This document shows positions 2,148 through 39,360 of a stretch of DNA of 40,900 bases, one piece after another. The DNA comes from Deltaproteobacteria bacterium (lineage in GTDB: Bacteria > Desulfobacterota > Desulfuromonadia > Geobacterales > Pseudopelobacteraceae). The notes under the pieces were generated by a model. The model was not told the origin of the DNA and ran no database searches. It was given only the letters and a program-made list of their open reading frames with translations. The position numbers were made by a program, and so were the translations under genes. The stretch spans positions 1-40,900 of the forward strand of contig JAJYCS010000015.1 of the NCBI GenBank assembly GCA_021778115.1. Reading direction: 5' to 3'. Numbering within the stretch: the stretch's first letter is position 1; every line of letters starts with the position of its first letter.

Positions 2148-2175
2148 TTGCCTTTCGGGGGCTATCTGGTATCAT
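2148..2175 (+). promoter_or_regulatory. Candidate sigma70-type promoter for the nitroreductase gene
   Basis: TTGCCT (2148-2153) and TATCAT (2170-2175) are separated by 16 bases and lie about 47 bases before the ATG at 2223. The -10 matches consensus at 5 of 6 positions and the -35 at 4 of 6. It sits in the short gap after the efflux gene. Read by eye only. Confidence 0.4.
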
Positions 2176-2222
2176 CATCGGTACGAAACCATGAATCCCG
2201 CCAACCGCCAAGGAGGTCTGCA

Positions 2223-2825: not shown

Positions 2826-2864
2826 CCAGCCGTCGTACCCACGCCATCGGTTCGTGAGGTGCCC

Positions 2865-5600: not shown

Positions 5601-5605
5601 ATCCC

Positions 5606-6763: not shown

Positions 6764-6775
6764 CGGAGGAAACTG

Positions 6776-21833: not shown

Positions 21834-23324
21834 TCAGGGCCGATTCGCATACTGCCGCGAAATGACCGCCAGCAACTCCTTGGCGGTATCAGAGACAACA
21901 GTCACCTGAGCTGGATCGAACAGTACGTTGTTCAGATACTGCAGCTTCAGGACATCACCATCTTTCAATTCCGGGATCACGCCCGCAAATAGGAAACCTT
22001 TGTTCGCCAACCTGCCAGCCAGAATCGCTGCTTCACGGCTCGCCATGGGTACATTCAGATAAATCGCCTCGACCTTTTTCTCGCACAACTCCCTAGTATG
22101 ATGAAGGATTATTTCAAACGCATCCTCGCCGATCTGATGCAGTTCGATAGAGGCGTCATTGAATGCATCCTGGCGGATCTGGATTTCGAGCTGCGTATCC
22201 GTCCCGGTTCCCAACCCGGTTTCCGTGACCTCCTCAACCTGACGGTTCATCCTGTTTTCCGCGTAAATTCGCTCGACCAGACCGGAGTATACCGGAGGGG
22301 CATAGACTGTCCGCATCTTCTCGGGATTGAGTCGCGCATAAAACAACACCAGAGCCTGCCTCTGTCCCATACATTCCGAGCCGATCTTCTTGAATGCCAC
22401 GTTATCCGACACATAGGACAGCAGAATACCGGTTTCATGTAACCCCAACGTCAAGTTTCCCTGCTGGGTATAGGGATGAATGGTCACCGCCTCGCTGAAG
22501 ATGCCATTAAGCCCTTTGCCCCTAGCGTGCTCAAACAGAAACCGTTTCATCTCCTTAAACAGGTTTAAGCCCCGATAACGAGGGTCTACCATGGCTGCTC
22601 CGCATTCGGCGACCTTTGCTTCACTCGTGTCATAAAACAAACTCAGGCTGCCGATAATCTGGCCGTTAGCCGTAACCGCCACGCAGGAATCCATCAGGCC
22701 ATGCTCAATCCGTTGGCGGATCCTGTCCGGATGATAAAAATCACTGACATAGGTATAGCCATAACTGCGGTAGGCCAACTGAGCCAGGGCCAAGGTCTCC
22801 TGTGGTTGCAGCAAGCGAAAGTGCGGCTGTTCCGTCGACGCTTCAGGCACCGGTTCCTGGGTAGCAGTCGTGCCCTCGTGCGCATGCATGGCAGCAGCAA
22901 CACTTTCAGCAGGAATCTTCTTGATCAGCTCAAGCCGTTTGCCATCCTTGCCCTTATTGATGAACACAAACCCGTCCACCAACTGTTTCAGCAGGATGAA
23001 ATTCAGGGCCAGACCTTCGTTCTCCTCCAGATGTTTCAGATCGAGGGGGAGACCGTGGTCCTCGAGAGCAATAATGAACTGCCCCGGACGCTGTTCCAGA
23101 ATAACCGCGATCTCTCCGGGGTCATCCTCTTCAAAGGCGCTCTGCACGACGCTCATGAACGCCTCTTCGACGACCAGTTCAATCCTGGAGATATCGTCGT
23201 CGGCCATGCTAAAGCAACGGGCGAACTCAACTACCCACGCCTGGACCGGACGCAATGAAAACCTGGATGCCATAACCGTGGTTCTGGCAAAAGCCCCCTG
23301 GGGAAAGATCGCTCTATCCTGCAT
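21834..23324 (-). CDS. Degenerate RsbW-like HATPase domain fused to GNAT acetyltransferase and an unknown C-terminal domain
   Basis: A 496-residue three-part protein. Residues about 1-137 resemble the anti-sigma/HATPase_c_2 domain: N-box region IELVVEEAFMSVV (48-60), G1-like EDHGLPLD (88-95), and G2-like GLALNFILLKQLVD (104-117). The N-box asparagine is replaced by Ser58, so ATP/Mg binding and kinase activity are doubtful. Residues about 168-320 are a GNAT fold with CGAAMVDPRYRGLNLFKEM (241-259) as acetyl-CoA motif A. Residues about 330-496 are an unrecognised alpha/beta domain with REAAILAGRLANKGFLFAG. The start ATG 23324 has GAGGAG upstream and overlaps the LuxC-fusion gene by 11 bases, so the two are coupled. 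It is the last gene of the Lux-like operon. Its acyl acceptor is unknown. Confidence 0.82.
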   Translation of the reverse strand: MQDRAIFPQGAFARTTVMASRFSLRPVQAWVVEFARCFSMADDDISRIELVVEEAFMSVVQSAFEEDDPGEIAVILEQRPGQFIIALEDHGLPLDLKHLEENEGLALNFILLKQLVDGFVFINKGKDGKRLELIKKIPAESVAAAMHAHEGTTATQEPVPEASTEQPHFRLLQPQETLALAQLAYRSYGYTYVSDFYHPDRIRQRIEHGLMDSCVAVTANGQIIGSLSLFYDTSEAKVAECGAAMVDPRYRGLNLFKEMKRFLFEHARGKGLNGIFSEAVTIHPYTQQGNLTLGLHETGILLSYVSDNVAFKKIGSECMGQRQALVLFYARLNPEKMRTVYAPPVYSGLVERIYAENRMNRQVEEVTETGLGTGTDTQLEIQIRQDAFNDASIELHQIGEDAFEIILHHTRELCEKKVEAIYLNVPMASREAAILAGRLANKGFLFAGVIPELKDGDVLKLQYLNNVLFDPAQVTVVSDTAKELLAVISRQYANRP

Positions 23325-25986
23325 GACGCTCCTCAACAACCCGTTTGATCTTGCCGGTGCGGGGATTGCGTGGCAGCTCCCGTGGGCCAAGCACCAGCAC
23401 CACCGGCCGTGCAATGGTGCCTGAAGCAAGGTTTGCAGCGATAACCGGCTTTTCCCTGAGGATGGTCGCTACCAACTCCTGAGAGAGCGCTGCCTGCTCT
23501 GCTTCCCCCAGCGGTTCCATGGATTCCACCTGCACCTCCAGCAGATCCAGCCCCCCGTTGGATTTCCCATAGAGGGTAAAGTTCTGACTGAGACCTGCTA
23601 CCTCTGCCACACAGGTGGCAATGGCATCGATGGAGACATTGTCCGCCCCGATCACCACCACCTCATCAGAACGTCCCAACAACTCAAACCTGCGAGTGGT
23701 ACGGCCACAGGGACAGTCTCCGGCAATAATCCGTCCACGGTCACCCACGTTGTAACGGATCACCGGCATCAGGGTCCGGTCAATATTGGTCAGGATGATG
23801 TTGCCTGCTTCGCCGTCAGGCAGCAGTTGCTGCGTCTCAGGATCAACAATCTCCAGAATGTGCAACTCTTCGTTGAGATGGTGAATCGAGCCGGTGCAGG
23901 CGGGGCATTGATAACCGACCACCCCGGTATCATTGATCGCGTATGAAGCAGAACAGATCAGCTCCGTCTTGAGTACCGCTGCAACATATGCCCTGGTTGC
24001 CTCCGGCATATGCTCGCCGCCGTAGCCGATCTTTCTGATGGTCAGATCGGTGATAGTGTTATGTTCAACGTACTGGGCGATCCCCACCAACACCGACGGG
24101 ATCGACACCACTCCGTCCACCTTGAAGGACCTGAGAAACGAGATGATGTTTTCCAGAGGGATATGACCGCCGATCGGCAGGATATGAGCGCCGATCTGTT
24201 CCAGCGCCATGTTCATACTGACAAATGAGGCCCACATGTTGCCGGCAAAAAACAGATTGGCCACCACATCACCCTCATTGAACAGACCGAGCGCAACTCC
24301 CTTGGCCATGCCCCGGGCGTTTCGATGGGCCTCATCCATGGTACGATAGACGAATTTCGGCTTGCCGGTGGTGCCGCCGCTGGAAAACGAGATTGAGTTA
24401 CCCAGCGGGCCGGTCAGCAGGCCTTCACCGTACGGGGGCAGGTGCGATCTGAAGTTATCCGGTTCCAGAATTTCAAGGGAAGACAGGTCTGACAGCTCCC
24501 GTAGCGGTTGTAACGGCAGCCGTTCCCGGTAAAACGGAGAGTTCTGGCGGGCAACGCTCAGCAGATGGTTCAGCCGGGCAAGGGTGACTGCGTCTCGTGT
24601 TGCAGTATCAGCAAAATCAAAGGGATCATCAAACTTGCGTTGGTGCCCGATGGAGACCCAGCGTACCAGTTCCGACAGCCCACGGGTACCGTCATGGGGG
24701 GTGCCATGCTTGCGTTTGTGCATCCAGCCCAGTTCGGTGATCCGGTCGGCACCAAGCCCCACCAGACGGTTTGAAAGTTCAAACAGACGCTTGCTGTCTG
24801 CCAGCAGGCCAACGGACTGGATAAACTTGCCCTGCTCCGTAAGGGAATCATACAGTTCCTGATCATTGTTGATCGTAATCACGTAGGCGGTGCGGTGCTG
24901 ACAGGAGACGGTGAAGCGGGGGTTCTTTTCCAGAATGATGGTCCAACTTTGATCACCGACACCGGGGATGATCAGCTCTGAATTCCCCAATGCCTGCTCA
25001 ACCCTGGCCAGTTCACGGGTGCGGGTGATCTCGGTCTGCTCATTCAGGTCTATCTTGGGAAACGGGTATTCCACTGCCAGACGTTCAAACGCCTTTTGCA
25101 GGGCAGTGCTAAAACGCCGCGCCTCTTCCTCGCCCTGGATAAAGACCGAATGGGGCGACGAACAGGCAGCCTGCTCCCACATGGCAAAATCCTTGGCAAC
25201 CTGATAGGCCACCTGATCGTAGTCAGCAGCTGCCAAGGCATCCCGGTCCAGCACCACCAGCGAGTACTTCGGCCCGTACTCCACCTCTTTGGTGTGCAGG
25301 CCACGCCCCTGACGGTAGATCTCCACCACTTCCTTACCGCCATAGACGATCACCACGTCGGATTGTTCCTTTACTATCCGCTCCACCGCCTTGTCGCCCC
25401 CCTTGAAGGGGACCAGCGCCACATAGGGATAGATCACCGCCTCCGGATCGCATTCCATCAACAATTTGGCAAACAGCAGCGGAAAGAGCGGATCAAAGGA
25501 GGACATCTTAAGGATATTCACGTTCTTGGTCAGAATCCCCTGCACCAGCGTATCAACCGCGCTGACAAATACGTTTCCAGCAGAGACGTGTGAGACAACC
25601 CCTTGGGGCATGGCCCGTACAAAGCCGCGAAACCGGTCATGCCAGGTGAAGGTATCGATGTAGGCCACGTCATCAAGGTCTACGGCCAGCCGTGTGATCA
25701 GGTTATCAAAGGTAAGGATTTCGCAGATAGCCCCCAGCCCTGCAGCGATCATCTCAGGCGAAAAGCTGATCTGGGCTGGCATGCTTGCCATCACCTCCTG
25801 CCGGATTGGATCATCAGGATCAGCCAACCGCTGGCCAACACAGTCCAACACCGTGGCAAGCTTCACCACCGGTATGTCCCGTATCAAGGCGATCTTCGAT
25901 TGTGCGGTCTTCAGTATCTCCTGCATGATGTCAGCGTTGATCTCGCTCGACTCGACAAATTCGCCAAAATTGAACCACGTCACCAT
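23314..25986 (-). CDS. LuxC-type acyl reductase fused to a PaaK-like adenylate-forming domain
   Basis: An 890-residue two-enzyme fusion. Residues about 1-455 match LuxC, the NADPH-dependent fatty acyl reductase: PQGVVSHVSAGNVFVSAVDT (127-146), the NAD(P)-fold VIVYGGKEVVE (213-222) and the catalytic cysteine Cys275 in EQAACSSPHSVFI. Residues about 465-890 are an ANL enzyme of the PaaK/CoF-synthetase type: P-loop SFSSGGTTGKPK (533-544), GYGGEHM, RYNVGD (744-749), Cys pairs 694/697 and 758/760 (likely structural zinc), and the C-terminal PRTGKIKRVV. LuxC reduces an enzyme-bound acyl group to an aldehyde; the fused domain could load it. GGGAGG precedes the ATG. The gene sits between luxE-like and GNAT genes. 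No luxA, luxB or luxD is present. Confidence 0.87.
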   Translation of the reverse strand: MVTWFNFGEFVESSEINADIMQEILKTAQSKIALIRDIPVVKLATVLDCVGQRLADPDDPIRQEVMASMPAQISFSPEMIAAGLGAICEILTFDNLITRLAVDLDDVAYIDTFTWHDRFRGFVRAMPQGVVSHVSAGNVFVSAVDTLVQGILTKNVNILKMSSFDPLFPLLFAKLLMECDPEAVIYPYVALVPFKGGDKAVERIVKEQSDVVIVYGGKEVVEIYRQGRGLHTKEVEYGPKYSLVVLDRDALAAADYDQVAYQVAKDFAMWEQAACSSPHSVFIQGEEEARRFSTALQKAFERLAVEYPFPKIDLNEQTEITRTRELARVEQALGNSELIIPGVGDQSWTIILEKNPRFTVSCQHRTAYVITINNDQELYDSLTEQGKFIQSVGLLADSKRLFELSNRLVGLGADRITELGWMHKRKHGTPHDGTRGLSELVRWVSIGHQRKFDDPFDFADTATRDAVTLARLNHLLSVARQNSPFYRERLPLQPLRELSDLSSLEILEPDNFRSHLPPYGEGLLTGPLGNSISFSSGGTTGKPKFVYRTMDEAHRNARGMAKGVALGLFNEGDVVANLFFAGNMWASFVSMNMALEQIGAHILPIGGHIPLENIISFLRSFKVDGVVSIPSVLVGIAQYVEHNTITDLTIRKIGYGGEHMPEATRAYVAAVLKTELICSASYAINDTGVVGYQCPACTGSIHHLNEELHILEIVDPETQQLLPDGEAGNIILTNIDRTLMPVIRYNVGDRGRIIAGDCPCGRTTRRFELLGRSDEVVVIGADNVSIDAIATCVAEVAGLSQNFTLYGKSNGGLDLLEVQVESMEPLGEAEQAALSQELVATILREKPVIAANLASGTIARPVVLVLGPRELPRNPRTGKIKRVVEERHAG

Positions 25987-26024
25987 TTCGGCCTCCCTGT
26001 TCCCTGATATACGGGATATGCGCG

Positions 26025-27143
26025 TTAGAGTTTAATCAGTTGCGAGGCCGAAATTGCGCAACCGGCATGCTTGGTCACCCCGGCGCGGCCACGCAGCATG
26101 ATGTAATCCCCTGGTATGCCGCAGGGACAAGCGGTGTCGATCCCCCCCAGGTCAGTGCTCAATACTGAAATGGCGGGTGCGCTCCTGATATAGCTGGTCT
26201 GCAGCTTCAGCAGGCCGGTTTCCCCTTTGGGCAGCACCTGCAGGGTGCCTGGATCCATGGCAGCCACATGGGCAAAGATCGGGACATGGTAATGGCGATG
26301 TCCGCAGCTCATGTAGGGCACCCCATGCTCCACCATGCCGTAGAAGTCCCGGATCCGTTCCTGCTGGATGCCGAGGATATCGTGGACCAGGTCGGCATAC
26401 CCCTCAAAACTGACCGTCTCACCCTTGTGGGATTTCCATCCGCCACCGGTTATCAGCAGGCTCTCTGCCGGAAACTGCAGCCGTATCCCACGCTTTTTCA
26501 TCTCCTGCAAGGTAACGAAACTGAAGGCCAGAAAGCCCACCACCCGCAGCGGTAGCCCGGTCTCGGCAAACCTCTCCAGGGTTGCTATGGCCTGCTCAAG
26601 GTCGAACTCCGGCTCGCCCCCCTCTCCCTGCTGGAGGGCAAAGTATTTTTCTGCTGCAGGGGCAAAGGTTGTATAGATATTGAAGGTGTGGGCTGCTCCA
26701 CGCTGATCGGCAATAGCAGGCGCATAGGAAAAGACCAGGTAATTGTGCTGCTGCTCGCTGGCCAGCCCCAAAGAGCGCACCAGCAGATTGCGCATCCCGG
26801 CCTGTCGGTCAAAGGAGATCCGGTCCAGGTTGATCTGACTCTTCTGCCCCTGGGTGCCTGAAGAGGTAAAAGTAATGCAGATCTGATCTTCGGGCAGGGA
26901 GAGCAGCCGCCGCTGTTTGAAGGCGGTCACAAAGATGTGGGGGATGGAGGTGAGATCCCCATAGGTCTGGATCTGATCAGCCGTAAAGCCGTACTGCTGA
27001 CAGATACCCCGGTACACCGGAGAATGTTCAGAATGAAAACCCGCCATCTCCCGCATGGACTGCACAAACAGCCGCTTATTCTCTTCAGAAAAATCAAAGG
27101 CCTGCGTAAGTGCATAAAGCCGGTTTGTTGCTTCTTCTGTCAT
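26025..27143 (-). CDS. LuxE-like acyl-protein synthetase
   Basis: A 372-residue ANL-superfamily enzyme of the LuxE family, which activates a fatty acid with ATP and holds it on a cysteine for reduction by LuxC. The P-loop is TFTSSGTQGQKSQINLD (91-107). The adenylate-binding motif is FYGMVEHG (267-274). LSTDLGG has Asp331. CPCG (339-342) and RGRAG follow. A cysteine at position 362, eleven residues from the C-terminus, is where the acylated cysteine of Vibrio/Photobacterium LuxE lies. The gene ends 38 bases before the LuxC fusion and starts 17 bases after the PaaK-like gene. With LuxC it should form the fatty-acid reductase pair. The acid it takes may differ from tetradecanoate, since LuxD is absent. 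Confidence 0.86.
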   Translation of the reverse strand: MTEEATNRLYALTQAFDFSEENKRLFVQSMREMAGFHSEHSPVYRGICQQYGFTADQIQTYGDLTSIPHIFVTAFKQRRLLSLPEDQICITFTSSGTQGQKSQINLDRISFDRQAGMRNLLVRSLGLASEQQHNYLVFSYAPAIADQRGAAHTFNIYTTFAPAAEKYFALQQGEGGEPEFDLEQAIATLERFAETGLPLRVVGFLAFSFVTLQEMKKRGIRLQFPAESLLITGGGWKSHKGETVSFEGYADLVHDILGIQQERIRDFYGMVEHGVPYMSCGHRHYHVPIFAHVAAMDPGTLQVLPKGETGLLKLQTSYIRSAPAISVLSTDLGGIDTACPCGIPGDYIMLRGRAGVTKHAGCAISASQLIKL

Positions 27144-27160
27144 CGTACCCAGCCTCCCAT

Positions 27161-28444
27161 TTATAAAACCCGCCGATCTACCAACCGCGCCACCTTGCCG
27201 GTAATCGGACTGCGGGACAGTTTTCCCAACGCCACTATCTCGATGTCAAATGCCCGAAGATACCCCTTCTCGGCGGAGATCCTCAACTCCGGAACCGCCT
27301 CGAACAACTCCTTTTCCAGGGCAGCCAGCACTACCGGTTCAACTTGAGCGGGTGCTTCAACCCGCAGCACCACCGTAAACTGGCTGCCCACATCCTCTAT
27401 CTCAAGCTGAAAGTTCAGGCTCAGGCTGTCGGGATGTAGGGCAATACAGCTTTCGAATACCTCCAGTGAAATAAACCCGCCCCCCAGCTTGAAGTCTTGC
27501 CCGGCGCGACCGCCCAGCTTCAGCAGGGGGTTGCGGTCGCCACAGGGGCAGGGTTCGCCGACCCAGGTGGCCACGTCCCCCACCCGATACCGGATAATCG
27601 GCGTTGAAACCCGGCTGAGATTGGTCACCACCACCTCCCCCGGTTCACCGGTACGTGCCCGGCGGCCTTCATCGAAGTTGATCAGTTCCACAAACTGAAA
27701 TGCCGTAGGGACATGATACACCCCCGGCTTCACATGATCGCACTGATATCCCATGATCCCCACGTCGGCGCTGGTATACGCCCCCGCCTTGATGCGGCTG
27801 ACGCCCAGCGCTGATGCGACATGGGCCTCGGCTGCCGTACTCAGGTGTTCACCGGCATAGTTGATCATCCGCAGGCCGTTGAAGCTGAAACCATCACGCT
27901 TGGCCATGTCGGCCATGAACACAAACAGGGTCGGCAACGACACCATGACCGTCGGTTCAAACTGCAGGCAGAGCTTGACCACCTCCTCGATCGGGATATT
28001 GGCGGAGATGGGAAGATGCACCGCACCGAGTCTTTTGATGCAATCGTGCAGCCCGAGAAACGAAGGCCAGAAATGGCCGGCTATGAACAGGTTGGCGACC
28101 CGGTCTTGCCGGGTTATGCCGAGAATCCGCATGGCAGCGGCCTGACACTCCACAAACGCGTCCCATTCGCCGTGGGTGTAAGTGGTGTAGCGGGCTATGC
28201 CGCTTGAACCGCCGGTGGAGATGATGATGGCGTCCTCAAGCGGTTGCGTCAGCATGTCCGTTGTCTGCGGATAGGAGCGTTCGTAGATCTCTGCGCGGGT
28301 CAAAACCGGCAGACGCTCCCACTGTTCGATTGATTCAGGCCGTGTAATGCCAGCGTTCTTTTCGGCATAAAATTTGGATTTCAGGGCAGCCTGAAAGATC
28401 TGGATCCCCTTGGCAAGCTGCATCTCTGTTGATACATGATCCAT
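27161..28444 (-). CDS. PaaK-like adenylate-forming enzyme (paralogue of the LuxC-fused domain)
   Basis: A 427-residue acyl/aryl-adenylating enzyme of the phenylacetate-CoA ligase/CoF-synthetase type. The P-loop is IIISTGGSSGIARYTTYT (73-90). GEHL, GYQC, IIRYRVGD and CPCG follow, and the C-terminal subdomain ends SPITGKVARLVDRR. It aligns readily with the C-terminal half of the LuxC fusion: ANLFIAGHFWPSF against ANLFFAGNMWASF, LPISANIPIEE against LPIGGHIPLEN, NYAGEHL against GYGGEHM. The two therefore look like duplicates. GGAGG precedes ATG 28444. It probably activates a carboxylic acid to an AMP ester and then to CoA or a carrier. The substrate is unknown, and no carrier protein gene is seen nearby. 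Confidence 0.83.
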   Translation of the reverse strand: MDHVSTEMQLAKGIQIFQAALKSKFYAEKNAGITRPESIEQWERLPVLTRAEIYERSYPQTTDMLTQPLEDAIIISTGGSSGIARYTTYTHGEWDAFVECQAAAMRILGITRQDRVANLFIAGHFWPSFLGLHDCIKRLGAVHLPISANIPIEEVVKLCLQFEPTVMVSLPTLFVFMADMAKRDGFSFNGLRMINYAGEHLSTAAEAHVASALGVSRIKAGAYTSADVGIMGYQCDHVKPGVYHVPTAFQFVELINFDEGRRARTGEPGEVVVTNLSRVSTPIIRYRVGDVATWVGEPCPCGDRNPLLKLGGRAGQDFKLGGGFISLEVFESCIALHPDSLSLNFQLEIEDVGSQFTVVLRVEAPAQVEPVVLAALEKELFEAVPELRISAEKGYLRAFDIEIVALGKLSRSPITGKVARLVDRRVL

Positions 28445-28498
28445 CGTGCCCCCTCCCTGTTTTCACAAAATTATGAACGCCAACATTCTCAACTCAAT

Positions 28499-29866
28499 TT
28501 AACTCTCAACAATGTATCTATGCTTGATGGCACCCGTCGTAGCGGTCAATTCCTCAACCTTCACGCGAATCAGCTCCTCGCCGATGGACCGGGTCAGGTT
28601 GGAGTATTTGGCTTCAAACTCCAGGCTCTGCCCCATGAGGTAGCGGATAAGGGCATCCTGGTATTGCTCCGCCAGCGTGCCGTCCCCCAGGTTTTCCACC
28701 TGTATCGTGAACTCAAATACCGACACATCCCCTTGCTCCACCCTGCGGACGGTGAACAGTCCCGTATAGGCCATTTCCCCTGGCAGGCTGAGAAAATGAC
28801 GGTTTATCTCCTGCACATTCAGGTTGGTCCCGTAAAAGATGATCGAATCAGACGCCCTCCCCCGCACAAACAGCATCCGCTCCGGTAGTTCAGCGAGCAG
28901 TTCCGCCGGAATGGCCCCCAGTCCCGCAAGCCCAGCCTTATCCAGCATCCCCCCCTCGTCGCCGGTATTGTACCGCACCAGAGGCACCAGCTGATCCTTG
29001 GTCACGATTATCCTGCCATCCAGCAATTCCACATGAGCCTTCGGTGCCAGGACAAGTATCATCGGCGTGTCATCCGTGCCGAACAACTCCCTTCCAAACC
29101 CGGCGTTGGTGTGGAACAGTTTTCTGAGCCGGACGGTTGCAGCGGTTTCCACCCCGATGTCACCCGTGTCCGCCGAACCATAGCCGGTCCAGACAACAAA
29201 AGGGGCATCCGGGGCATGTCCGTACCGCCGGGCAACAGACTCCCGGAACGTCTCGCTGAAATACTCGCCAACCACCGGAAAACTGCACGACCCCGGCGGC
29301 ACTGCGACACCTTTCCGTTGAATCAAGGCCGTGATCAGCCCGATATTGGAAGGGTTGGTAATCCAGAGTACGTTAGTGAAATGGGTACAGAACCGGGAGT
29401 ATATCTCCACCGCTTCCGCCAGATTCAGCCCCGGTGTGCAGACCGTGATCGGAAGCCTTCCAGTCGCAGCGATGACCCGCAGGGCCGCCGTAATGGCCAT
29501 GCCGCCGAACCAGGTGCCAAGCGCCATGCAGCAGATGATCAGGGTCCTTTTCCGGTCGATCCCGTAGTTACGGATCAACATGCTCTCCAATGAATCCAGA
29601 TACTGGATTTCGTCCTCCGGCCGTTTGGGCCAGAACACCGAGCCGCTCTTGCTGAAACCGGAACTTGAACCGATAAGGTGGCAATTACCTAGGGTACCGT
29701 TCCAGCAAAGTTCTTCGATGGGGTACTCCAAGAGGTAGTTCTGCTTGGTCTGGAGCGGAAGCGTCTCGAACGTCCCTTCGATGGAGGCCGAGTGCGCCTC
29801 CAGAAAGCTGCGATAACCCGGTACGGCATCAAACACCCGACGGGAGAAAGCCTGTACGTTATCCAT
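28499..29866 (-). CDS. Divergent PaaK/CoF-synthetase-like adenylate-forming enzyme
   Basis: A 455-residue ANL-type enzyme. ATG 29866 has AAAGGAG six bases upstream, so an in-frame extension to 29941 (inside the MFS gene) is not used. Visible motifs are the P-loop LIGSSSGFSKSGSVFW (64-79), WTGYGSADTGDIGVET (adenylate loop) and VPLVRYNTGDEGG with the ribose-binding Asp. A C-terminal domain of about 110 residues holds NLNVQEINRHFLSLPGE. Unlike its two neighbours it lacks the paired cysteines of the zinc site. It therefore belongs to a different branch and was probably recruited rather than duplicated locally. It starts 10 bases after the MFS stop. Substrate unknown. Confidence 0.78.
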   Translation of the reverse strand: MDNVQAFSRRVFDAVPGYRSFLEAHSASIEGTFETLPLQTKQNYLLEYPIEELCWNGTLGNCHLIGSSSGFSKSGSVFWPKRPEDEIQYLDSLESMLIRNYGIDRKRTLIICCMALGTWFGGMAITAALRVIAATGRLPITVCTPGLNLAEAVEIYSRFCTHFTNVLWITNPSNIGLITALIQRKGVAVPPGSCSFPVVGEYFSETFRESVARRYGHAPDAPFVVWTGYGSADTGDIGVETAATVRLRKLFHTNAGFGRELFGTDDTPMILVLAPKAHVELLDGRIIVTKDQLVPLVRYNTGDEGGMLDKAGLAGLGAIPAELLAELPERMLFVRGRASDSIIFYGTNLNVQEINRHFLSLPGEMAYTGLFTVRRVEQGDVSVFEFTIQVENLGDGTLAEQYQDALIRYLMGQSLEFEAKYSNLTRSIGEELIRVKVEELTATTGAIKHRYIVES

Positions 29867-29876
29867 GGACGCTCCT

Positions 29877-31076
29877 TTATACATACTGCTCACGCAGTTC
29901 GGTGATCCGGTACATAAGACCGGCGCACAGAAACAGGCCAATACCGCAGACCATAAATATCGCGGTCGGATCGACCAGATCCGAAAGCCACCCGGTCAAA
30001 CCGAAGGCGATCGGCTGGGCGGAGAGGGAGACCGCCGTCAACAGGCTGAAAAATTTACCCCTGACCTCACCCGGTATAGCCCTTTGAAACAGGGTAATAA
30101 GGCAGATGTTGACGCCATTCAGGGCAAAACCGACCAGGACAAGGGCAACGACAAACAGGAGGAATCGTTCGACCAGCCCCATGGCCAGAAAACTGCCCCC
30201 CACCACGAGCAGGCTTGATATGACAAGCCGGTAGATCGTGGCCTTGGGACGAAAGGTGCTTAGTGCCAGCGAGGCCAGAAACATCCCGCAGGTATAGCTG
30301 GCCAGGAGCAGTCCAACCCCTGTCGATCCGGATTTGAATACCCCCTCGGCGAAGACCGGAATCAACACCGCAAGGGACGAGAACAGGAAATTGACGACCA
30401 CCAACGGCCCCAGCATCCTGGACACCATCGGCATGCCCCGGACAACGGTCCACCCTTCTTTCAGATCAGATACGAACGATAACGTTTCCACGGATGGGCT
30501 GTGCTGGTAGGCAATTCTCCGGATAAGCAGGGCAGACACTAAAAACGAACCTCCATTGAAAAAGAACGCAGCCGGGACGCCAATTGCAACTATCAACCCA
30601 CTCCCCATCAAAAAGCCGAGGGCTCCGCTGGCATTGGCCGAAAGCTGCGTGAGCGCGTTGGCGCGCCCTAGATCCTGCGAGGAGACAATGGACGGTATCA
30701 TGGCGAGCGTTGCTGGGTTGAAAAAGGCGGAGGCGATCGAGATCAGCGCCGTCATGAGGACAAGCACCGGCATATTAAGCAGGCCGTAGTAGGCCATCCC
30801 GGCCAGGATGATCACCAGCACGCTACGGACGAGATCACAGGCGATGGCGATCTGCTGCCGGCTCATCCGGTCAGAAATAGCTCCTGCCCAGGGTGAAATC
30901 ATCACAGACGGCAGGGTTGCGGCAATGAGTACCAGCCCCAGGGCCGTGCCTGATCTCGTCCAGGAGTACACCAGCCAGATTACGGCAAGGGTATGAATCC
31001 GGTCGCCAATCTGGGAGACCACCTGGCCAACCCAGAAGTTTCTAAAGTTTGGATGCTCCTGCAGAAACGTATTCAT
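29877..31076 (-). CDS. MFS transporter (DHA3/MefA-like drug or metabolite exporter)
   Basis: A 399-residue major facilitator with 12 predicted helices, of the class of macrolide-type exporters. Helix 1 begins after NFRNFWVGQVVSQIGDRIHT, and the loop 2-3 motif A is GAISDRMSRQQIAI (about 66-79). FFNPATLAMIPSIV and RAIPGEVRGKFFSL are typical for this subgroup. ATG 31076 is chosen over TTG 31079, with AAGGAG five bases upstream. It is the first gene of the Lux-like operon and probably exports its product or provides immunity. Import cannot be excluded. Confidence 0.86.
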   Translation of the reverse strand: MNTFLQEHPNFRNFWVGQVVSQIGDRIHTLAVIWLVYSWTRSGTALGLVLIAATLPSVMISPWAGAISDRMSRQQIAIACDLVRSVLVIILAGMAYYGLLNMPVLVLMTALISIASAFFNPATLAMIPSIVSSQDLGRANALTQLSANASGALGFLMGSGLIVAIGVPAAFFFNGGSFLVSALLIRRIAYQHSPSVETLSFVSDLKEGWTVVRGMPMVSRMLGPLVVVNFLFSSLAVLIPVFAEGVFKSGSTGVGLLLASYTCGMFLASLALSTFRPKATIYRLVISSLLVVGGSFLAMGLVERFLLFVVALVLVGFALNGVNICLITLFQRAIPGEVRGKFFSLLTAVSLSAQPIAFGLTGWLSDLVDPTAIFMVCGIGLFLCAGLMYRITELREQYV

Positions 31077-31244: not shown

Positions 31245-33155
31245 TTACCCCCTGTACAGCACCATCATCATGGTTATGTCGTCAGACTGGGGCGCGCCTT
31301 CGGCAAACCGACCCACCTCCGCCATGACACCGGTTACGGTCTCCCTGATCCCGCTGCCGCAAAGGAGGGCCAGGGTCCGCTCCAGCCTTTCCTCCGAGAA
31401 TGCCTGATCCCGGAGGTCCATGGCCTCGGTCACGCCGTCGGTGTAGAGAAACAGGCTGTCGTCCGGCTCCAGCAGCAGGCGCTCACGCCGGTAGGTGATC
31501 CCTTCCATGGCCCCCACCACGACTCCGCCGGACGTGGGCAGCCAGGAGATCCCTCCGCTACGCTTCATGTGCAGGGGCGGATTGTGGCCGCCGTTGGCGT
31601 AGACGAGTTCGCCGGTTTCCGTGTCCAGCAAGCCGCAGAAGGTTGTCACGAACATGCAGGAGTCGTTGTCCCGGGCAAGCTCGCCGTTCACCCGGCAGAG
31701 GATCTCGTCGGGTGCTATCCCCTGGCGGGCCGTTGCCTTGATCAGGGTCATGGACATGGCCATGAAGAGCGCGGCCGGCACCCCCTTGCCGGAGACATCG
31801 GCGATGACGAAACAGAGATGGGTGTCGTCCACCAGGAAGAAATCGTAAAAATCACCCCCCACCTCCCTGGCCGGCGCCATCAGGGCATAGAGGTCGAACT
31901 CCCGCCGCTCGGGAAAGGGTGGGAAGTTCTTGGGGAGAAGACCCATCTGGATGTCGTGTGCGATGTTCAGTTCGCTCTCGATCCGCTCCTTGGCGGCCGT
32001 AGTTTCGGTGAGCCTTGCTATATACTCCTTGAGTGAGCCTTTCATCACCTGGAAGGCGGTGGTGAGGGCCCCCACCTCGTCTCGGCTGCGCACAGGCGGC
32101 AGATCCACCTCAAAATCGCCGCCGGCTATTGAGGCGGTGGCCTGCGCCAGCCCGTAGAGCGGGGTTGTGATGGAGCGGGCGATGAACACCACCGCTACGG
32201 TCAGGAGCAGGATGCCCGCCATCCCCATGGCCGCGCCGGTCAGGCTCAGCCTTTTCACCTGGGCCAGCAGTTCGGCCTCGGGAAAAACGACCGCCAGGGT
32301 CCAGCCGACGGACGGGATCGGCGCATAGTAGAGCCAGCACGCTCTCCCGGTTATGTCGGTGTACGGGATGAAGTCAGTCCCACCCCGGATCATCTTCCTG
32401 CCGAGTGCGCGCAACCCCGGATCGTTCCGGGCCTCGGCAAGGCTGAAGATGGTCTCGTTCATGATCATATCCTTGGCAGGATGGGTGACGATGGTACCGT
32501 TGCGGGAGAGGAGAAAGGCATAGCCCGTTTTCAGCACCTTTATGGATGCGACCAGTTCCGTAAGCCACTCCAGGGAGACATCCGAGGCAACCACCCCCTT
32601 CAGGCGCCTGGTGCCGTTCGTGGTTTCGTAGAACGGGACGGAACAGGTGGCCATGAGGATGTTGGCGCCGTTGTCGCCATAATATGGCTCGGTCCACTCG
32701 GCCATCCCCAGCTCGCGGCTGATCTGGTACCAATCCTGGCGAAGATACTGAAAGGTGTCCTCCGGGTCGTACACAAGAGTCTTCCCCTGTTTGTAGAAAT
32801 AGGGGCCGTAAGGGCGGGCATGGGGAGTGAGTGGTTCAAAGGCCGCGCAGCAGCCGTAAATCTCCCGGTTGTCCCTGACCGTGGCGCGAAGCAGGGAAAG
32901 GAGCTGCCGGTGGGTGTATCCGCCGCTTTCCAAGGACCGCGCAACCCCTTCGGTCACCTTTGCGACCGAGGTGAGCACCGTATCCACCCGGTACACCGAC
33001 GCGAGGGCCAGGTTGCGGGCGTTGTTTTCCAGCTCCTGCTGAAGCATGAGCCGGGAACGGTAGTAGTTGTAACCGAGTACGGCGGCGAAGATCAGCGTGC
33101 CGCTCAGGGTGATGACAAAGATCAGCTTGAAGGCTATGCTTCTATCAGCGAGCAT
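31245..33155 (-). CDS. Membrane dCache-HAMP-SpoIIE (PP2C) phosphatase
   Basis: A 636-residue sensor phosphatase. TM1 is about 9-29, then a periplasmic double-Cache domain (about 35-295, with WYQISRELGMAEWTEPYYGD), TM2 about 307-327, and HAMP about 328-380 (ITTPLYGLAQATASIAGGDF). A linker helix (ERIESELNIAHDIQMGLLP) leads to the SpoIIE/RsbU-type PP2C domain (about 420-636). The metal-binding motifs are GGDFYDFF, IADVSGKGVP, YTDGVTEAMD and SDDIT. Such enzymes dephosphorylate a STAS antagonist, which then captures the anti-sigma or partner kinase. The start ATG 33155 has TGGAGG upstream; a TTG at 33170 is less likely. It overlaps the binding-protein gene by 11 bases, so ligand binding protein, phosphatase, kinase and STAS protein are one expression unit. 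Confidence 0.93.
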   Translation of the reverse strand: MLADRSIAFKLIFVITLSGTLIFAAVLGYNYYRSRLMLQQELENNARNLALASVYRVDTVLTSVAKVTEGVARSLESGGYTHRQLLSLLRATVRDNREIYGCCAAFEPLTPHARPYGPYFYKQGKTLVYDPEDTFQYLRQDWYQISRELGMAEWTEPYYGDNGANILMATCSVPFYETTNGTRRLKGVVASDVSLEWLTELVASIKVLKTGYAFLLSRNGTIVTHPAKDMIMNETIFSLAEARNDPGLRALGRKMIRGGTDFIPYTDITGRACWLYYAPIPSVGWTLAVVFPEAELLAQVKRLSLTGAAMGMAGILLLTVAVVFIARSITTPLYGLAQATASIAGGDFEVDLPPVRSRDEVGALTTAFQVMKGSLKEYIARLTETTAAKERIESELNIAHDIQMGLLPKNFPPFPERREFDLYALMAPAREVGGDFYDFFLVDDTHLCFVIADVSGKGVPAALFMAMSMTLIKATARQGIAPDEILCRVNGELARDNDSCMFVTTFCGLLDTETGELVYANGGHNPPLHMKRSGGISWLPTSGGVVVGAMEGITYRRERLLLEPDDSLFLYTDGVTEAMDLRDQAFSEERLERTLALLCGSGIRETVTGVMAEVGRFAEGAPQSDDITMMMVLYRG

Positions 33156-34152
33156 CTGGCCTCCAGACAAAGGAGTCGAAAGGCGGGATCTTGCGGATCA
33201 CGGCGTTATCCAGAAGTATCCGCGCCGTGGTTTCGTAGTCGCTCCGGGCCAGGCGGCCGTATCCGGCGGTATTTCCCTGGGGCATGATCAGGTCTCGCAT
33301 GCGGGCCAGCATCCATTTCTGGTGCATCCTGTTGGCCGGGATCTTTGCAGCCCGCATGTACTTCATGATGATGTCCAGGGCCTCGTCGGGGTGGGCAAAG
33401 GCATACTGCCACCCTTCCAGGGAGGCGGCGACGAATTCCCGGGCGAGGTCGGGATCGTTGTTTACGGTCTTTTCCAGGGCATAGAGACCGTCTTCGGGAA
33501 GATTCAGTCCCTCGTCCTTGAGGAAGAACACCTTCAGTGCATCCGGGTCGACCCCTGAATCGATGATGGTGTGGTACTCGTTGTACCACATGGCAGATGT
33601 GACATCGATCCCGCCGCGCAGGAACAGGTTGACGGTATAGGATTGCGGCACCTCGTGCACCCGGATATGAAACTTCTTGAAGAAGGCGTGGGGAGGTATG
33701 GCGAAATCGCCGCCCCAGAGGCCGACCTTTTTGCCGTTCATGTCGGCCGGTGTCCTGATGCCGCTCGATTTCCTGGCAATCAGCATGATGGAGGTCTTCT
33801 GGACGATCTGGGCGATGTTGACGAGCTTAACCCCGGCTGCCTGCTCCTTGAGCGCGGTAGTGAGCCAGAGCAGCGCGAAGTCCGCCTTCCCCTTTGCCAG
33901 ATAAGTGGCGGACGAATAGTTCGGGCCTCCGCTGATGATGGTCAGGTCGATGTCGTGCTTGCGATATATCCCCTTGTCCAGTGCGGTGTAGTAACCGGCA
34001 AACTGGGCCTGGGGGCTCCAGAGCGGAATCAGGGTCGCCTTTTTGAGCGTTCGCTCCGCCGCAAAAGCCTGTGCCGCGGCCAACGCAACGATGAGCGCCG
34101 CGGTGAGCAGCCGGGCAACACCAAATATCCGCGCCGCCGGAATTTCCCTCAT
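33145..34152 (-). CDS. Periplasmic NMT1/SsuA-like substrate-binding protein (orphan)
   Basis: A 335-residue solute-binding protein with a signal peptide of about 31 residues (core LLTAALIVALAAAQAFA). The mature part matches NMT1/THI5-type proteins: LIPLWSPQAQFAGYYTALDKG, YRKHDIDLTIISGGPN, GKADFALLWLTTALKEQAAG, MNGKKVGLWGGDF and MWYNEYHTIIDSG. These usually bind pyrimidine, sulfonate or nitrate-like ligands for ABC importers. No permease or ATPase gene is near. It lies inside a partner-switching operon, overlapping the kinase gene by ATGA and the phosphatase gene by 11 bases. The likely role is ligand presentation to the dCache sensor. The ligand is unknown. Confidence 0.88.
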   Translation of the reverse strand: MREIPAARIFGVARLLTAALIVALAAAQAFAAERTLKKATLIPLWSPQAQFAGYYTALDKGIYRKHDIDLTIISGGPNYSSATYLAKGKADFALLWLTTALKEQAAGVKLVNIAQIVQKTSIMLIARKSSGIRTPADMNGKKVGLWGGDFAIPPHAFFKKFHIRVHEVPQSYTVNLFLRGGIDVTSAMWYNEYHTIIDSGVDPDALKVFFLKDEGLNLPEDGLYALEKTVNNDPDLAREFVAASLEGWQYAFAHPDEALDIIMKYMRAAKIPANRMHQKWMLARMRDLIMPQGNTAGYGRLARSDYETTARILLDNAVIRKIPPFDSFVWRPDAR

Positions 34153-34580
34153 GCCGTGCCGTCATCCGTGCGCTGCAGGACCATGCGGAGCACGTTGCGA
34201 CCCTCATCCCGCCGGTAGCTTACCTCGTCGGTCAGCGTGCGGATGAAGTGTACCCCGAGTCCGCCGATCTTTCGTCCCATGAGATCTGCGCCGGTATCCG
34301 GCTCAGGGAGGGAGAGAATATCAAACGGTATCCCCCAGTCCATCATCGTGACCACAAAACCACCTCGGTCACAGCCGCAAGCCAGCTCTACATCACCGGT
34401 ACCGCCGGGATAGGCATAGTGGCAGACATTGACGAAGGCCTCCTCCACGGCGATCAGCAATCCGATCCCTTTCCCGGTGTCCAGAGCGCAGCGCTCGGCG
34501 TGCGCTTCGACAAAGCCGGTCACTTCAGCGAGGTTCCCGACATCGGCCGCGCATCGCAAGGTATCCGTTTCGTTCTCCAT
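34149..34580 (-). CDS. RsbW/SpoIIAB-like serine kinase (anti-sigma or partner-switch kinase)
   Basis: A 143-residue HATPase_c_2 protein. The start ATG 34580 overlaps the STAS stop (TGATG); a longer frame to 34697 runs through the STAS gene and is rejected. N-box: LLIAVEEAFVNVCHYAY with Mg-binding Asn51. G1: DWGIPFD (81-87). G2: GGLGVHFIRTLTDEV (106-120). All three ATP-binding motifs are present, so it should phosphorylate the neighbouring STAS protein and bind a target factor. No sigma factor gene lies in the window, so the output partner is elsewhere or is not a sigma factor. Confidence 0.92.
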   Translation of the reverse strand: MENETDTLRCAADVGNLAEVTGFVEAHAERCALDTGKGIGLLIAVEEAFVNVCHYAYPGGTGDVELACGCDRGGFVVTMMDWGIPFDILSLPEPDTGADLMGRKIGGLGVHFIRTLTDEVSYRRDEGRNVLRMVLQRTDDGTA

Positions 34581-34915
34581 CAGGCCGGCTCGGCCAGTGC
34601 GCCGGACACCGAATCGTACATCCGGAAAATCGATCCGAAACCGGAGATGTCGAACACCTCTTTGACCGCTCCTCCGACAGCGGCGAAGCGGATCCATCCG
34701 CCCTTCCCCTTCAACGCCTTGGCCGTTGCCAGGATGCCCCTCAAGCCGGCACTGCTGATATACTCCAGCCCGGACATTTCCATCACGAACTGTGTTTCTC
34801 CCTCGGCAATCCGCTCATTCAGGGCTTTCTCGAACGAAGGAGCGGTTATGGCATCCATCCTCCCTGTTATCTTCACAATTGTTGTGTCGTTTTCCGTTCT
34901 GCACGCTATTTCCAT
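34580..34915 (-). CDS. STAS-domain anti-sigma factor antagonist
   Basis: A 111-residue SpoIIAA/RsbV-like protein and first gene of the signalling operon. It shows ITGRMDAITAPSFEKAL, the phosphorylation loop LEYISSAGLRGIL with Ser55 at the phospho-acceptor position (Ser54 replaces the usual Asp), and GGAVKEVFDISGF. Phosphorylation by the adjacent kinase would release it; dephosphorylation by the SpoIIE protein would let it sequester the kinase. GGGAGG precedes the ATG. It overlaps the kinase gene by one base. Confidence 0.93.
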   Translation of the reverse strand: MEIACRTENDTTIVKITGRMDAITAPSFEKALNERIAEGETQFVMEMSGLEYISSAGLRGILATAKALKGKGGWIRFAAVGGAVKEVFDISGFGSIFRMYDSVSGALAEPA

Positions 34916-36471: not shown

Positions 36472-37842
36472 TCACTGCAGCATGAAGGTCTCGTACTCAA
36501 GCCGCTCCAGGTCCTCATCCAGAAAAATCATCCCCACGGCGATAACAGCCACCAGGGCCAGGGCGAAACCGTAACCGTAGTAGTACGGTCCCAACTGGAT
36601 CGACACCAGGGTGAAGAGGAGGTTCAAAACGGTGAAACACCCGGTAAGGATCAACACACGCCGGCGTTTATCCAGATAGAAGAAGATGTTCAAAATCCCC
36701 AGCAGCACCACCTGAAATCCGGCAGCAGCCACCTGAATGGCGAGAAGCGGCAGATGGATCTCGGCGATTCCGGCCAAGGCCAGCAGGCGACTGCCCGCAA
36801 CAATCACCACCATGGTGGTGATCCCCTGGATCTTCATGATATCGTAGAGCCCTTCCCTCGCCACCCGTACCATCTCGTCCTTCATCTCCTGGATGTAAGA
36901 GAGTGAGCCCCCTTCCCGCACCGCGTCGTAGAACCGGTCGTAATACTCCACAAAGTCGCTCTCCATCCGCACAAGAAAGACCGCCATACCGGGGATAATG
37001 GCCAGATAGGCGAGAAAAACCGGCAGGTCGTACACCAGTGAACCTCGTAATGGCCCGATCACCTGCCGGCCGGTAACCGGATGAAACCAGAAGACAAACT
37101 TGTCTCCCCATATCCCTAAATTATAAAAGAGACCGGTGGCCATCAGGGACCGAAACATACGCCCCTTGCCGAGAAAATCGAATTCGATGAAGCGGTTAGA
37201 TGGGTAGTCACGGGCAATAATCCGCATCATCCCGAGGAATACGATGAACTGCCCTGTCAGAAAGGCCAGCACCAACCCTTCCAGGTTACCATGACGCAGC
37301 AGTATCGTCAGTGCCAGCGCGCTGCCATAGCCCAGAGCGAAGTTGGCCAGGATCGCCTTGTATGCCTTGAGGCCCGAGAGGAGGATGGCCGTGACCCAGA
37401 CACAGCAGAGCACCACAAAGGTGGCGGCAAACAGCAATCGAAACAGGAGGCTTTGCTGGGTAAAACAGCAAAGGCCCACCGGATAGGAGATGATGGCGGC
37501 GGCCGGGATAACCAACGCCAGGAGACCGTTCAGGTTGGGCAGCAACCGGTAATGTTCCTTGCAGAAGATCCGGTCAGCGGCATACCGGGTGAAGGCCAGC
37601 TGCACCAGGCCGGTGAGGATGAGACTGCCGGCGATCAGGTAGGTGACCACGGTCTGAAACTTGGACACCAGGAGAGCCGGTATGACCACCGGAATGGAGA
37701 TGATGCCGATCAAGAGCACGGCGACGATGGACAGAATCCAGGGACCGGAGCTGATGATCCCGGCGTAGGCATATGCCATGACCAAGGAGCTGTAGCTCTC
37801 CCCCTGCATCAGCTTGCGCAGTTCAAAACCGATCCCCGCCAT
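36472..37842 (-). CDS. pelG: PelG, inner-membrane protein of Pel polysaccharide export
   Basis: A 456-residue polytopic protein of the MATE/Wzx-like (MVF) superfamily with about 12 helices. PelG forms part of the inner-membrane Pel synthase/transport complex with PelD, PelE and the glycosyltransferase PelF. It begins with MAGIGFELRKLMQGESYSS, as PelG proteins do, and holds NLGIWGDKFVFWF, FVEYYDRFYDAV and the charged C-terminus FLDEDLERLEYETF. The length equals that of PelG. Its start immediately follows the pelF stop without an intervening base. It is the last gene of the operon. Confidence 0.92.
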   Translation of the reverse strand: MAGIGFELRKLMQGESYSSLVMAYAYAGIISSGPWILSIVAVLLIGIISIPVVIPALLVSKFQTVVTYLIAGSLILTGLVQLAFTRYAADRIFCKEHYRLLPNLNGLLALVIPAAAIISYPVGLCCFTQQSLLFRLLFAATFVVLCCVWVTAILLSGLKAYKAILANFALGYGSALALTILLRHGNLEGLVLAFLTGQFIVFLGMMRIIARDYPSNRFIEFDFLGKGRMFRSLMATGLFYNLGIWGDKFVFWFHPVTGRQVIGPLRGSLVYDLPVFLAYLAIIPGMAVFLVRMESDFVEYYDRFYDAVREGGSLSYIQEMKDEMVRVAREGLYDIMKIQGITTMVVIVAGSRLLALAGIAEIHLPLLAIQVAAAGFQVVLLGILNIFFYLDKRRRVLILTGCFTVLNLLFTLVSIQLGPYYYGYGFALALVAVIAVGMIFLDEDLERLEYETFMLQ

Positions 37843-39360
37843 CTAGGCCAACCCCTCCCGGTATAGCTCCCGGTACTGCCGAAACATCAATTCCTGGCTG
37901 TAGTAACGCTCCACCCGGTGGACAGCCACCTGAGCGGCCCGCCGCCATGCCTGATGGTCCTCCAAAAGACGTCGGCAGGCGTCAGCCAAGGCCTGGGGAT
38001 TGTTGATCGGCACCACGGCGCCGGCATCTCCCAAGGCGCGGTCCTCGTGTCCCCCCCCCTCCACCAGTTGCCGGCAGGCCCCTACGTCGGTGGTCACCAA
38101 AGGCACCCCGGCGGCAAACCCCTCCAAGGCCACCAGCGGCAGACCCTCACTGATGGAGGAGAGCACCAGCAGACCGATACGGGGGAACAGGGCCAGGGGG
38201 TCCATAAAACCGGTGAAACGGACCCGTCCCTCCAACTCCAGACTCTGCACCAATGCCCGGCATTCAGCGGCGTAACCGGGGTCTTCCCCCTCAGGGCCCA
38301 CCACCCAGGCCTCAATCCCCGGAAGATGGCCACTCAGGACCCGAACCGCACGGATGAAGGTTTTTACATCCTTGATCGGCACCACCCGCCCCAGCAGGGC
38401 CAGGACCATGGGCGGTTCCTGGGGACGTTCGCACCGTAACGGGGCAAAGCGGGCCAGGTCAATGCCGTTGGGGATCACCCGAATCCGTTCTGCTGGTGCA
38501 CCGTCACTGATCTGGCGCTGCCGCACCCCCTCGAAAAGGGAGACGATCTGGCCGGCTGCGTCGTAACAGAACCTCCCCAGGGTCTCGAAGAAGCGAATCC
38601 AGAGGTCCCGGTAGTAACTGAGTTCAGCAGGATCCCGCTGCAGGGCGTTACGCGTATCCTGTATCCAGTCGCTGTTAAAGATGTCGATCCGCCGCTCTTT
38701 GGTATAGATGCCATGTTCCGAGAGGAGGAGGGGGCGGCCGGAGGCGTGGTGGAGCAGGCCGCCGAGGAAACCGGCATAGCCGGTGGAAACGGTGTGGTAG
38801 AGCCGGGCCGGTATCAGGGCATCGGCAACGGCGGCCAACTGCCAGATCGGGGCATGCATATTGCGGACAGTCCAGAAGTAGTCCACAAAGGAGGGATCTT
38901 TGCAGCGCTGCCTGTAGAGCTCACAGATGTACTCCCAGGAACGCTCGGCAAAGAGGAACTGGCGGTAATCGACCCCTCCCGCCCCCCCCTGATAGAAGGA
39001 GATCCGCTTCAGTTCAGCCGGCAGTCCGTCAGGAAACGGGTCGGCAAACCAGCCGTGGAGTCGACGGAGGGTCTCAAATCCCTGTCGGTCGCCGAGGCAG
39101 GAACTAGGGTGCGGCTGGAGCCGGTCATCATGCAGGTAGTGGATCTGCAGATGCTTCAGATTTGCCGGCAGCGGATATTTCTGTTCCCCATACTCCTCCG
39201 GCCTGCTGCCGATGAAGACAGCGCCGAAGGTGAGCTCAGGAAAGCCTTGGATGATCTGGTTGACCCAGCTGGAAACGCCGCCGCTGACGTAGGGAAAGGT
39301 CCCCTCCAACAGCAGCATGACGTCTACCCGTTCGGCCGTTGGCAGGAGGTGACCATTCAT
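37843..39360 (-). CDS. pelF: PelF, cytosolic GT4 glycosyltransferase for Pel synthesis
   Basis: A 505-residue retaining glycosyltransferase that polymerises the Pel chain (partially de-acetylated N-acetylgalactosamine-rich polymer in Pseudomonas). The N-terminus has LLLEGTFPYVSGGVSSWVNQ, a PelF hallmark. LLLSEHGIYTKERRIDI and the GT4 nucleotide-sugar motif EGLPLVALEGFAAGVP (E-x7-E) are intact, with RVIPNGIDLARF in between. It overlaps pelE by ATGA and abuts pelG. Substrate by homology is UDP-GalNAc or UDP-GlcNAc; not shown by the sequence. Confidence 0.94.
   Translation of the reverse strand: MNGHLLPTAERVDVMLLLEGTFPYVSGGVSSWVNQIIQGFPELTFGAVFIGSRPEEYGEQKYPLPANLKHLQIHYLHDDRLQPHPSSCLGDRQGFETLRRLHGWFADPFPDGLPAELKRISFYQGGAGGVDYRQFLFAERSWEYICELYRQRCKDPSFVDYFWTVRNMHAPIWQLAAVADALIPARLYHTVSTGYAGFLGGLLHHASGRPLLLSEHGIYTKERRIDIFNSDWIQDTRNALQRDPAELSYYRDLWIRFFETLGRFCYDAAGQIVSLFEGVRQRQISDGAPAERIRVIPNGIDLARFAPLRCERPQEPPMVLALLGRVVPIKDVKTFIRAVRVLSGHLPGIEAWVVGPEGEDPGYAAECRALVQSLELEGRVRFTGFMDPLALFPRIGLLVLSSISEGLPLVALEGFAAGVPLVTTDVGACRQLVEGGGHEDRALGDAGAVVPINNPQALADACRRLLEDHQAWRRAAQVAVHRVERYYSQELMFRQYRELYREGLA

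Follow-up and report, generated by a model that had tools for sequence, protein, structure and literature searches.

Leupeptin biosynthesis by the leupABCD genes was reportedly described by Li et al. in 2020 in Xenorhabdus, Photorhabdus and Klebsiella. The amide bonds of leupeptin are reported to be formed by separate AMP-dependent ligases and its aldehyde by a reductase (PMC11212599). In Klebsiella michiganensis CAV1374 leupABCD occupies positions 315,353-321,183, with a transporter adjacent (PMC8283571), and leupeptin-derived pyrazinones act as signals in Klebsiella (PMC11480411). In Aeromonas, luxE and luxC genes are found in flagellar glycosylation islands together with acyl carrier protein (ACP), ketoreductase and AMP-synthetase genes, and the addition of a liposugar has been suggested (PMC7874193). 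Here we describe a cassette of six genes, A to F, in a stretch of 40,900 nucleotides (the window; contig JAJYCS010000015.1 of assembly GCA_021778115.1) from a deltaproteobacterium of the Pseudopelobacteraceae. The operon is genuine; it is kept in many phyla and often has a partner switch beside it. There is, in our judgement, an even chance that its six genes constitute a carrier-protein-free, leupeptin-type assembly line for a small N-acyl-peptide aldehyde, with an extra ligase and under partner-switch control.

An earlier sequence-only reading placed six tightly spaced minus-strand genes at 21834-31076. All six frames are open there, separated from A to F by -11, 38, 17, 54 and 10 bp, and a purine-rich Shine-Dalgarno-like stretch lies upstream of the likely starts of A (23324, an ATG inside the end of B), E (29866) and F (31076). 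The boundaries so drawn are too narrow, since the SpoIIE, STAS and separate HATPase genes left outside them recur with the cassette. In the window these genes lie upstream of it on the same strand, together with an NMT1 gene, and all partner-switch components are present: a SpoIIE phosphatase, a STAS protein with its Ser and a HATPase with its N-box Asn. The features are as follows.

21834-23324, minus strand: A, SpoIIAB/RsbW-like HATPase (about residues 6-138), GNAT acyltransferase (166-340) and half-GNAT-like C-terminal domain (Pfam HATPase_c_2 and Acetyltransf_1)
23314-25986, minus strand: B, LuxC-PaaK fusion, with LuxC at about residues 1-450 (Pfam, 3e-81) and a PaaK-type ligase at about 455-890 (AMP-binding, 1e-10)
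26025-27143, minus strand: C, LuxE-type acid-activating acyl-protein synthetase (Pfam LuxE, 8e-47)
27161-28444, minus strand: D, PaaK-type AMP ligase (Pfam AMP-binding, 1e-11), with a proposed role in amide-bond formation
28499-29866, minus strand: E, very divergent PaaK-like AMP ligase (profile and PDB matches), found in 24 of the 47 loci described below
29877-31076, minus strand: F, MFS transporter and proposed exporter (Pfam MFS_1/MFS_3; MFS, 9e-34)
31245-33170, minus strand: dCache-HAMP-SpoIIE (RsbU-like) membrane phosphatase, the putative regulatory sensor (Pfam)
33145-34152, minus strand: NMT1-type periplasmic substrate-binding protein adjoining the sensor (Pfam NMT1, 6.5e-40)
34149-34580, minus strand: separate HATPase, an RsbW-like kinase (Pfam HATPase_c_2, 1e-26), N-box Asn present; a longer start at the ATG at 34697 is possible
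34580-34915, minus strand: STAS protein, anti-anti-sigma-like (Pfam STAS, 8e-20), Ser55 conserved

A dedicated acid-to-aldehyde reductase, LuxC with LuxE, is assigned by homology. The family profile of B matches the solved structures of LuxC (7xc6, E value 2.3e-68) and PaaK (4r1l, 1.7e-68), and C matches the solved LuxE of 7xc6 (1.7e-50) with its C-terminal Cys aligned. All 35 aligned rows of B share Cys275 of the LuxC half, within the motif ACSSP, and all 29 of LuxE share Cys362; we take these to be the acyl-carrying cysteines. Lys879 of B and Lys417 of D are likewise invariant in the aligned rows, the latter within a T415-G416-K417 motif common to all 25 rows of D. Protein E is matched by no Pfam or NCBIfam model, but its profile, built from 27 proteins, matches the D family (hhalign 97.5 %, E value 5e-12, 357 columns) and a solved phenylacetate-CoA ligase (1.3e-5), with no match to the LuxE family (0.3 %). 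Because of these matches the count of three adenylate-forming domains plus LuxE given by the sequence-only reading holds, very divergent as E is. By sequence and profile comparison, D, E and the PaaK half of B are proteins of the adenylate-forming fold, which would act as separate AMP-dependent ligases. Protein F was matched by the NCBIfam models TIGR00900, EntS and Mef, each under its cut-off. No Bac_luciferase homologue occurs in the whole genome at an E value of 0.001, and LuxC occurs once in it. Lux-type light emission is thereby ruled out, and the view of the cassette as LuxE/LuxC acid reduction without luciferase, joined to a transporter in one unit, is borne out.

On the pathway that we propose, the GNAT of A would N-acylate the first amino acid, and D, E and the PaaK half of B would act as AMP-forming ligases, each making one amide bond. 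LuxE would activate the terminal acid to an acyl-AMP and then to an acyl-Cys; the LuxC half of B would take the acyl group on Cys275 and reduce it with NAD(P)H to the aldehyde, which the MFS protein would export. The membrane dCache-SpoIIE phosphatase, STAS protein and HATPase kinase would form a partner switch, in which dephosphorylated STAS would dock on the HATPase domain of A and gate the first acyltransfer step. The substrates and the order of the steps are conjectural, as are the peptide-aldehyde product, its export and the docking.

Of 297 genomes sampled from the phylum, 269 matched somewhere, mostly via PaaK, and full-length matches to B were found in the genome itself, in one of the same genus (77 %) and in a distant one (44 %); a more diverged fusion is present in Desulfogranum mediterraneum (L081). 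Any match to A was found in 29 of 277 genomes of the class. When 84,980 species genomes were scanned with an alignment of four B sequences, the yield was 81 pattern matches, 49 relatives and 47 distinct loci, a lower bound because the scan patterns were strict. These loci are labelled Geobacteraceae, Bacteroidota, Acidobacteria, Chloroflexi, Armatimonadetes, Marichromatium gracile, Rhodopseudomonas palustris JSC-3b, Riflebacteria, a cyanobacterium, Sulfurimonas, Vallitalea and others. At a profile coverage of at least 60 %, B is found in 46 of the 47, C and A in 32 each, D and E in 24 each, F in 21, STAS in 21 and the separate HATPase in 16; an RsbU-like match of any length occurs in 23. Many loci end at contig ends. 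In the 22 loci that measure 18 kb or more, counting matches irrespective of their length, B occurs in 22, A in 21 (some weak or GNAT-only), C in 19, D, E, F and the RsbU-like protein in 14 each, STAS in 13 and the HATPase in 8. Both the HATPase and the GNAT are spanned by 29 of 35 A matches.

Gene order is retained as well: E-D-C-B in 19 of the 47 loci, F-E-D-C-B in 15 and C-B in 36, in several phyla, so the outcome that the sequence-only reading had named as refuting it, an order conserved in no relative, did not occur. Clustering of neighbouring frames of at least 90 amino acids identified only A to F, STAS, SpoIIE and HATPase as families present in three or more loci, besides a 125-residue frame and, in three Paludibacteraceae loci, a 437-residue protein that lies between E and D. 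This clustering gave no recurrent sigma factor family (rare or divergent ones could escape) and no recurrent ketosynthase or nonribosomal peptide synthetase family. The 690 small frames of 50-120 residues near the cassettes comprise 12 families found in three or more loci, one being STAS and the others mostly from near relatives, and none of the 690 has an ACP-like motif. Evolutionary distances among A to F covary across loci (15 pairs, r 0.77-0.94; permutation p at its floor of 0.001), and those of SpoIIE covary less well with A to F (r 0.56-0.87). A chance neighbourhood is ruled out by the recurrence of families, the conserved order and the covarying distances.

Phyla are mixed in both the ligase tree and the LuxE tree. 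In the comparison of loci, the nearest counterparts of A, B, D and E are in L037 (also G485), from another family, and those of C and F in L038 (also G558), from the same genus. GC at the third codon position is 0.64-0.71 in the six cassette genes versus 0.75-0.88 in ten other genes of the window including SpoIIE; the names of most of these ten are our own assumption. The cassette is apparently mobile and horizontally spread. Relatives of the NMT1-type protein stand next to the sensor in L037 and L048. Adjoining the regulatory block, at 36472-39360, are genes that we take from their translations to be PelG- and PelF-like. In a Desulfuromonas metagenome-assembled genome (L051), two BACON-domain proteins with weak Leukocidin-family matches are encoded at 1723-3537 and 5101-6882, between cassette genes. 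In Nonomuraea gerenzanensis (L145), E-like and SpoIIE-like frames lie at most 5 kb apart in a stretch that has no B.

SpoIIE accompanies the cassette far more often than expected. Of 19 loci tested, 14 carry a SpoIIE that Pfam confirms, where genome size and the number of SpoIIE genes would predict 0.40 (the P value of 2e-21 assumes independence, which relatives do not have). Seven of 23 genomes searched possess a single SpoIIE, and in all seven it lies inside the cassette. Ten SpoIIE proteins were scanned; eight show a dCache or PDC match (that of L058 below cut-off) and three a fused HATPase. The arrangement varies: STAS-HATPase-(336 residues, NMT1-like in L037)-SpoIIE-(270 residues)-F-E-D-C-B-A in G485, SpoIIE immediately before F in G098, and C-B-ligase-A-STAS-HATPase-SpoIIE in Desulfogranum. 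All 25 STAS rows have the Ser, and all 18 separate and all 6 SpoIIE-fused HATPases have the Mg-binding N-box Asn; by analogy with SpoIIAB, RsbW and RsbV, we assume both residues to be functional.

Protein A combines such a HATPase domain with an acyltransferase. Its structure model (pLDDT 87.4, pTM 0.70) superposes on SpoIIAB with Z 16.7 (2.7 Å over 130 residues) and on GNAT enzymes with Z about 14. The C-terminal domain modelled alone (pLDDT 94.4) gave a weak half-GNAT match (Foldseek E value 7e-4), Z 8.5 to the NUDT7 N-terminal domain (VIA) and Z 6.5-7.6 to GNAT rows; these matches being weak, it is half-GNAT-like at best, and no active second GNAT is claimed. Of 33 cassette A proteins, 7 have the N-box Asn and 26 lack it, whereas all 18 separate kinases keep it. 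The HATPase domain of A may therefore serve as a docking site for STAS and not as a kinase, and A would be an output of the switch in most cassettes. No such contrast is seen for the D-box Asp, which is found in 25 of 33 cassette A domains, 12 of 18 separate HATPases and 6 of 6 SpoIIE-fused ones.

Relatives of A without the HATPase (GNAT plus C-terminal domain) were also found in genomes of the same class, two to four per stretch (L114, L116, L122, L123, L129). They lie near HisC-like aminotransferases, HATPase-X proteins of 441-469 residues and KAS-III or an E1-lipoyl-KAS-III fusion, with a xanthine-dehydrogenase-like protein nearby in L123 and STAS or SpoIIE nearby in some. These stretches are apparently sister small-molecule clusters under partner switching. 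Their PF00155 proteins were considered as CqsA-like signal synthases, and NCBIfam and PDB comparisons assigned them instead to HisC-like aminotransferases.

The core of the cassette also occurs on plasmids. A search of plasmids found LuxE, LuxC-PaaK, PaaK and GNAT as a 5,759-bp operon on a conjugative Salmonella plasmid (within stretch L133, CP054717.1 98002-117978), surrounded by transposase, recombinase and toxin-antitoxin genes; a second Salmonella plasmid carries the same LuxC-PaaK gene (99.8 %). A Streptomyces plasmid (L131) carries PaaK, MFS, GNAT, LuxE and LuxC-PaaK, and three I36 peptidase-inhibitor genes adjoin this version (L131:11887-13254). In the ligase tree, D forms one clade (support 100/100) and groups with the ligases of both plasmid sets (98/89); of 14 ordinary PaaK loci chosen for this tree 7 gave a usable frame, and the PaaK halves of B were cut by length rather than by domain model. 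In the LuxE tree, cassette, Salmonella and Streptomyces proteins are united in a single clade (96/95) that excludes 7 other LuxE proteins; the switch-bearing cassettes of Desulfobulbaceae and Sulfurimonas fall with the plasmid sets (100/100). The Salmonella GNAT matches the A profile (5e-30). The Salmonella operon resembles leupABCD in gene number and size (5,759 bp versus 315,353-321,183). Two ligases with LuxE, LuxC and GNAT would be the minimum for Ac-Leu-Leu-argininal, and the window has one ligase more. The sequence-only reading, which knew of no described product for such a gene set, had overlooked leupeptin.

The Salmonella operon was also sought in E. coli genomes, with no match. A LuxE search in 369 genomes sampled by class around Marichromatium gave 7 matches. 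An E. coli mur probe, run on 114 and 80 of the sampled genomes, gave long matches of at most 73 % identity and recognised no Enterobacteriaceae genome. No description of the cassette was found in the titles or abstract openings of the papers listed, which exclude subscription papers. A search joining Lux-enzyme and partner-switch terms returned no paper, and one joining partner-switch and GNAT terms returned a single paper, on a cyanobacterial phosphatase.

The same genes could serve other chemistries. LuxE and LuxC might reduce a long-chain acid, with the PaaK-like proteins as acyl-CoA ligases and the GNAT transferring a fatty acyl group to an exported or envelope lipid; 7xc6, which both Lux proteins match, is a fatty-acid reductase, solved PaaK relatives are largely CoA ligases, and the luxE and luxC of Aeromonas islands were suggested to add a liposugar (PMC7874193). 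We regard this route as unlikely. No further enzyme family is present in three or more loci among frames of at least 90 residues, and a peptide aldehyde is more probable than a lipid one because there is no ACP-like frame among the 690 small ones and no recurrent ketosynthase, and because the LuxE clade is a separate one. The sequence-only reading, a small-molecule or lipid-aldehyde pathway with export, is partly supported. Another candidate is a small molecule other than a peptide aldehyde, aromatic or derived from an amino acid, such as an aryl amide or a pyrazine or pyrazinone formed from an aminoaldehyde; PaaK-like aryl ligases together with a carboxylate reductase could make it. Among the NCBIfam matches of B and D that fall short of the cut-off are BagE/FevW and FlxY, and the Klebsiella pyrazinone signals offer a precedent (PMC11480411), but the gene set fits the leupeptin-type minimum more closely and no further biosynthetic enzyme family recurs, which makes such a product improbable in our view.

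As to control, HATPase/STAS pairs classically govern sigma factors, and the switch may simply be an ordinary transcriptional regulator (STAS, HATPase and sigma factor) that accompanies the cassette, with the HATPase of A as a nucleotide sensor or anti-sigma domain. The D-box Asp retained in most cassette A domains and the N-box Asn in some fit this account; the lack of a recurrent sigma factor family in the loci, where rare or divergent ones could be overlooked, and the frequent loss of the N-box Asn from A, set beside its constancy in the separate kinases, do not. We treat it as a tentative but serious possibility. A bolder proposal, which we consider doubtful, is that of a self-contained, horizontally spread signalling cassette, in which the dCache phosphatase would read an external cue, possibly the cassette's own exported peptide aldehyde, and STAS would switch the committing acyltransferase on or off by binding its fused pseudo-kinase domain. 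If true, it would mean post-translational partner-switch control of a natural-product pathway.

Several observations weigh against a leupeptin-type line gated through A. Four of the seven cassette A domains retaining the N-box Asn are of the Desulfobulbaceae/Sulfurimonas type, and the residue is present in 6 of 8 A-family proteins counted outside cassettes; of these eight, L124 lacks it and, being on the same contig as L051, belongs with the cassettes. With the D-box Asp kept so often, nucleotide binding by A is possible. Five of the 19 loci tested have no SpoIIE, the distance correlation of SpoIIE with B is only r 0.575, and no switch was found in the stretches examined of the Salmonella, Streptomyces, Vallitalea, Chloroflexi and Riflebacteria forms. 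The Streptomyces GNAT, a GNAT by Pfam, does not match the A profile. The likeness of the Salmonella operon to leup rests on gene number and size, and the published leupA and leupB primers have no match in it. In the ligase tree most PaaK halves of B join 4 of the 7 ordinary PaaK proteins, apart from D (91/93, with long-branch warnings), so that amide ligation by this half is no more than a proposal.

If the leupeptin-type reading is true, carrier-free peptide-aldehyde synthesis, described for leupeptin in gammaproteobacteria, extends across many phyla to anaerobes and gut bacteria. Peptide aldehydes are protease inhibitors, and the pyrazinones derived from leupeptin have been reported as signals (PMC11480411). 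The fused HATPase-GNAT poses the question whether a partner switch controls a biosynthetic enzyme directly.

Compared with luxCDABE, whose LuxC-LuxE fatty acid reductase is solved (7xc6), the cassette shares the LuxE and LuxC families with their conserved Cys, but here LuxC is fused to PaaK, the genome has no luciferase homologue and the operon, in which alone it was sought, has no luxD. As lux equivalogs the window proteins score far under the NCBIfam cut-offs (LuxC 132 of 750 bits, LuxE 129 of 550 bits). The Aeromonas islands likewise combine LuxE, LuxC and an AMP synthetase without luciferase, but they have their own ACP, ketoreductase and glycosyltransferase genes, and neither a LuxC-PaaK fusion nor a partner switch appears in the passages on them (PMC7874193). 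Like leupABCD as reported, the cassette would be carrier-free, with separate AMP-dependent ligases, a reductase and an adjacent transporter; it differs in the extra ligase (E), the partner-switch module and the HATPase-fused GNAT. With the RsbU/SpoIIE-STAS-RsbW switches it has in common the sensor phosphatase, the STAS protein with its Ser, the HATPase with its Asn and, in A, a domain that superposes on SpoIIAB; it differs in the acyltransferase that carries a second HATPase, often degenerate, and in the association of the module with an enzyme cassette.

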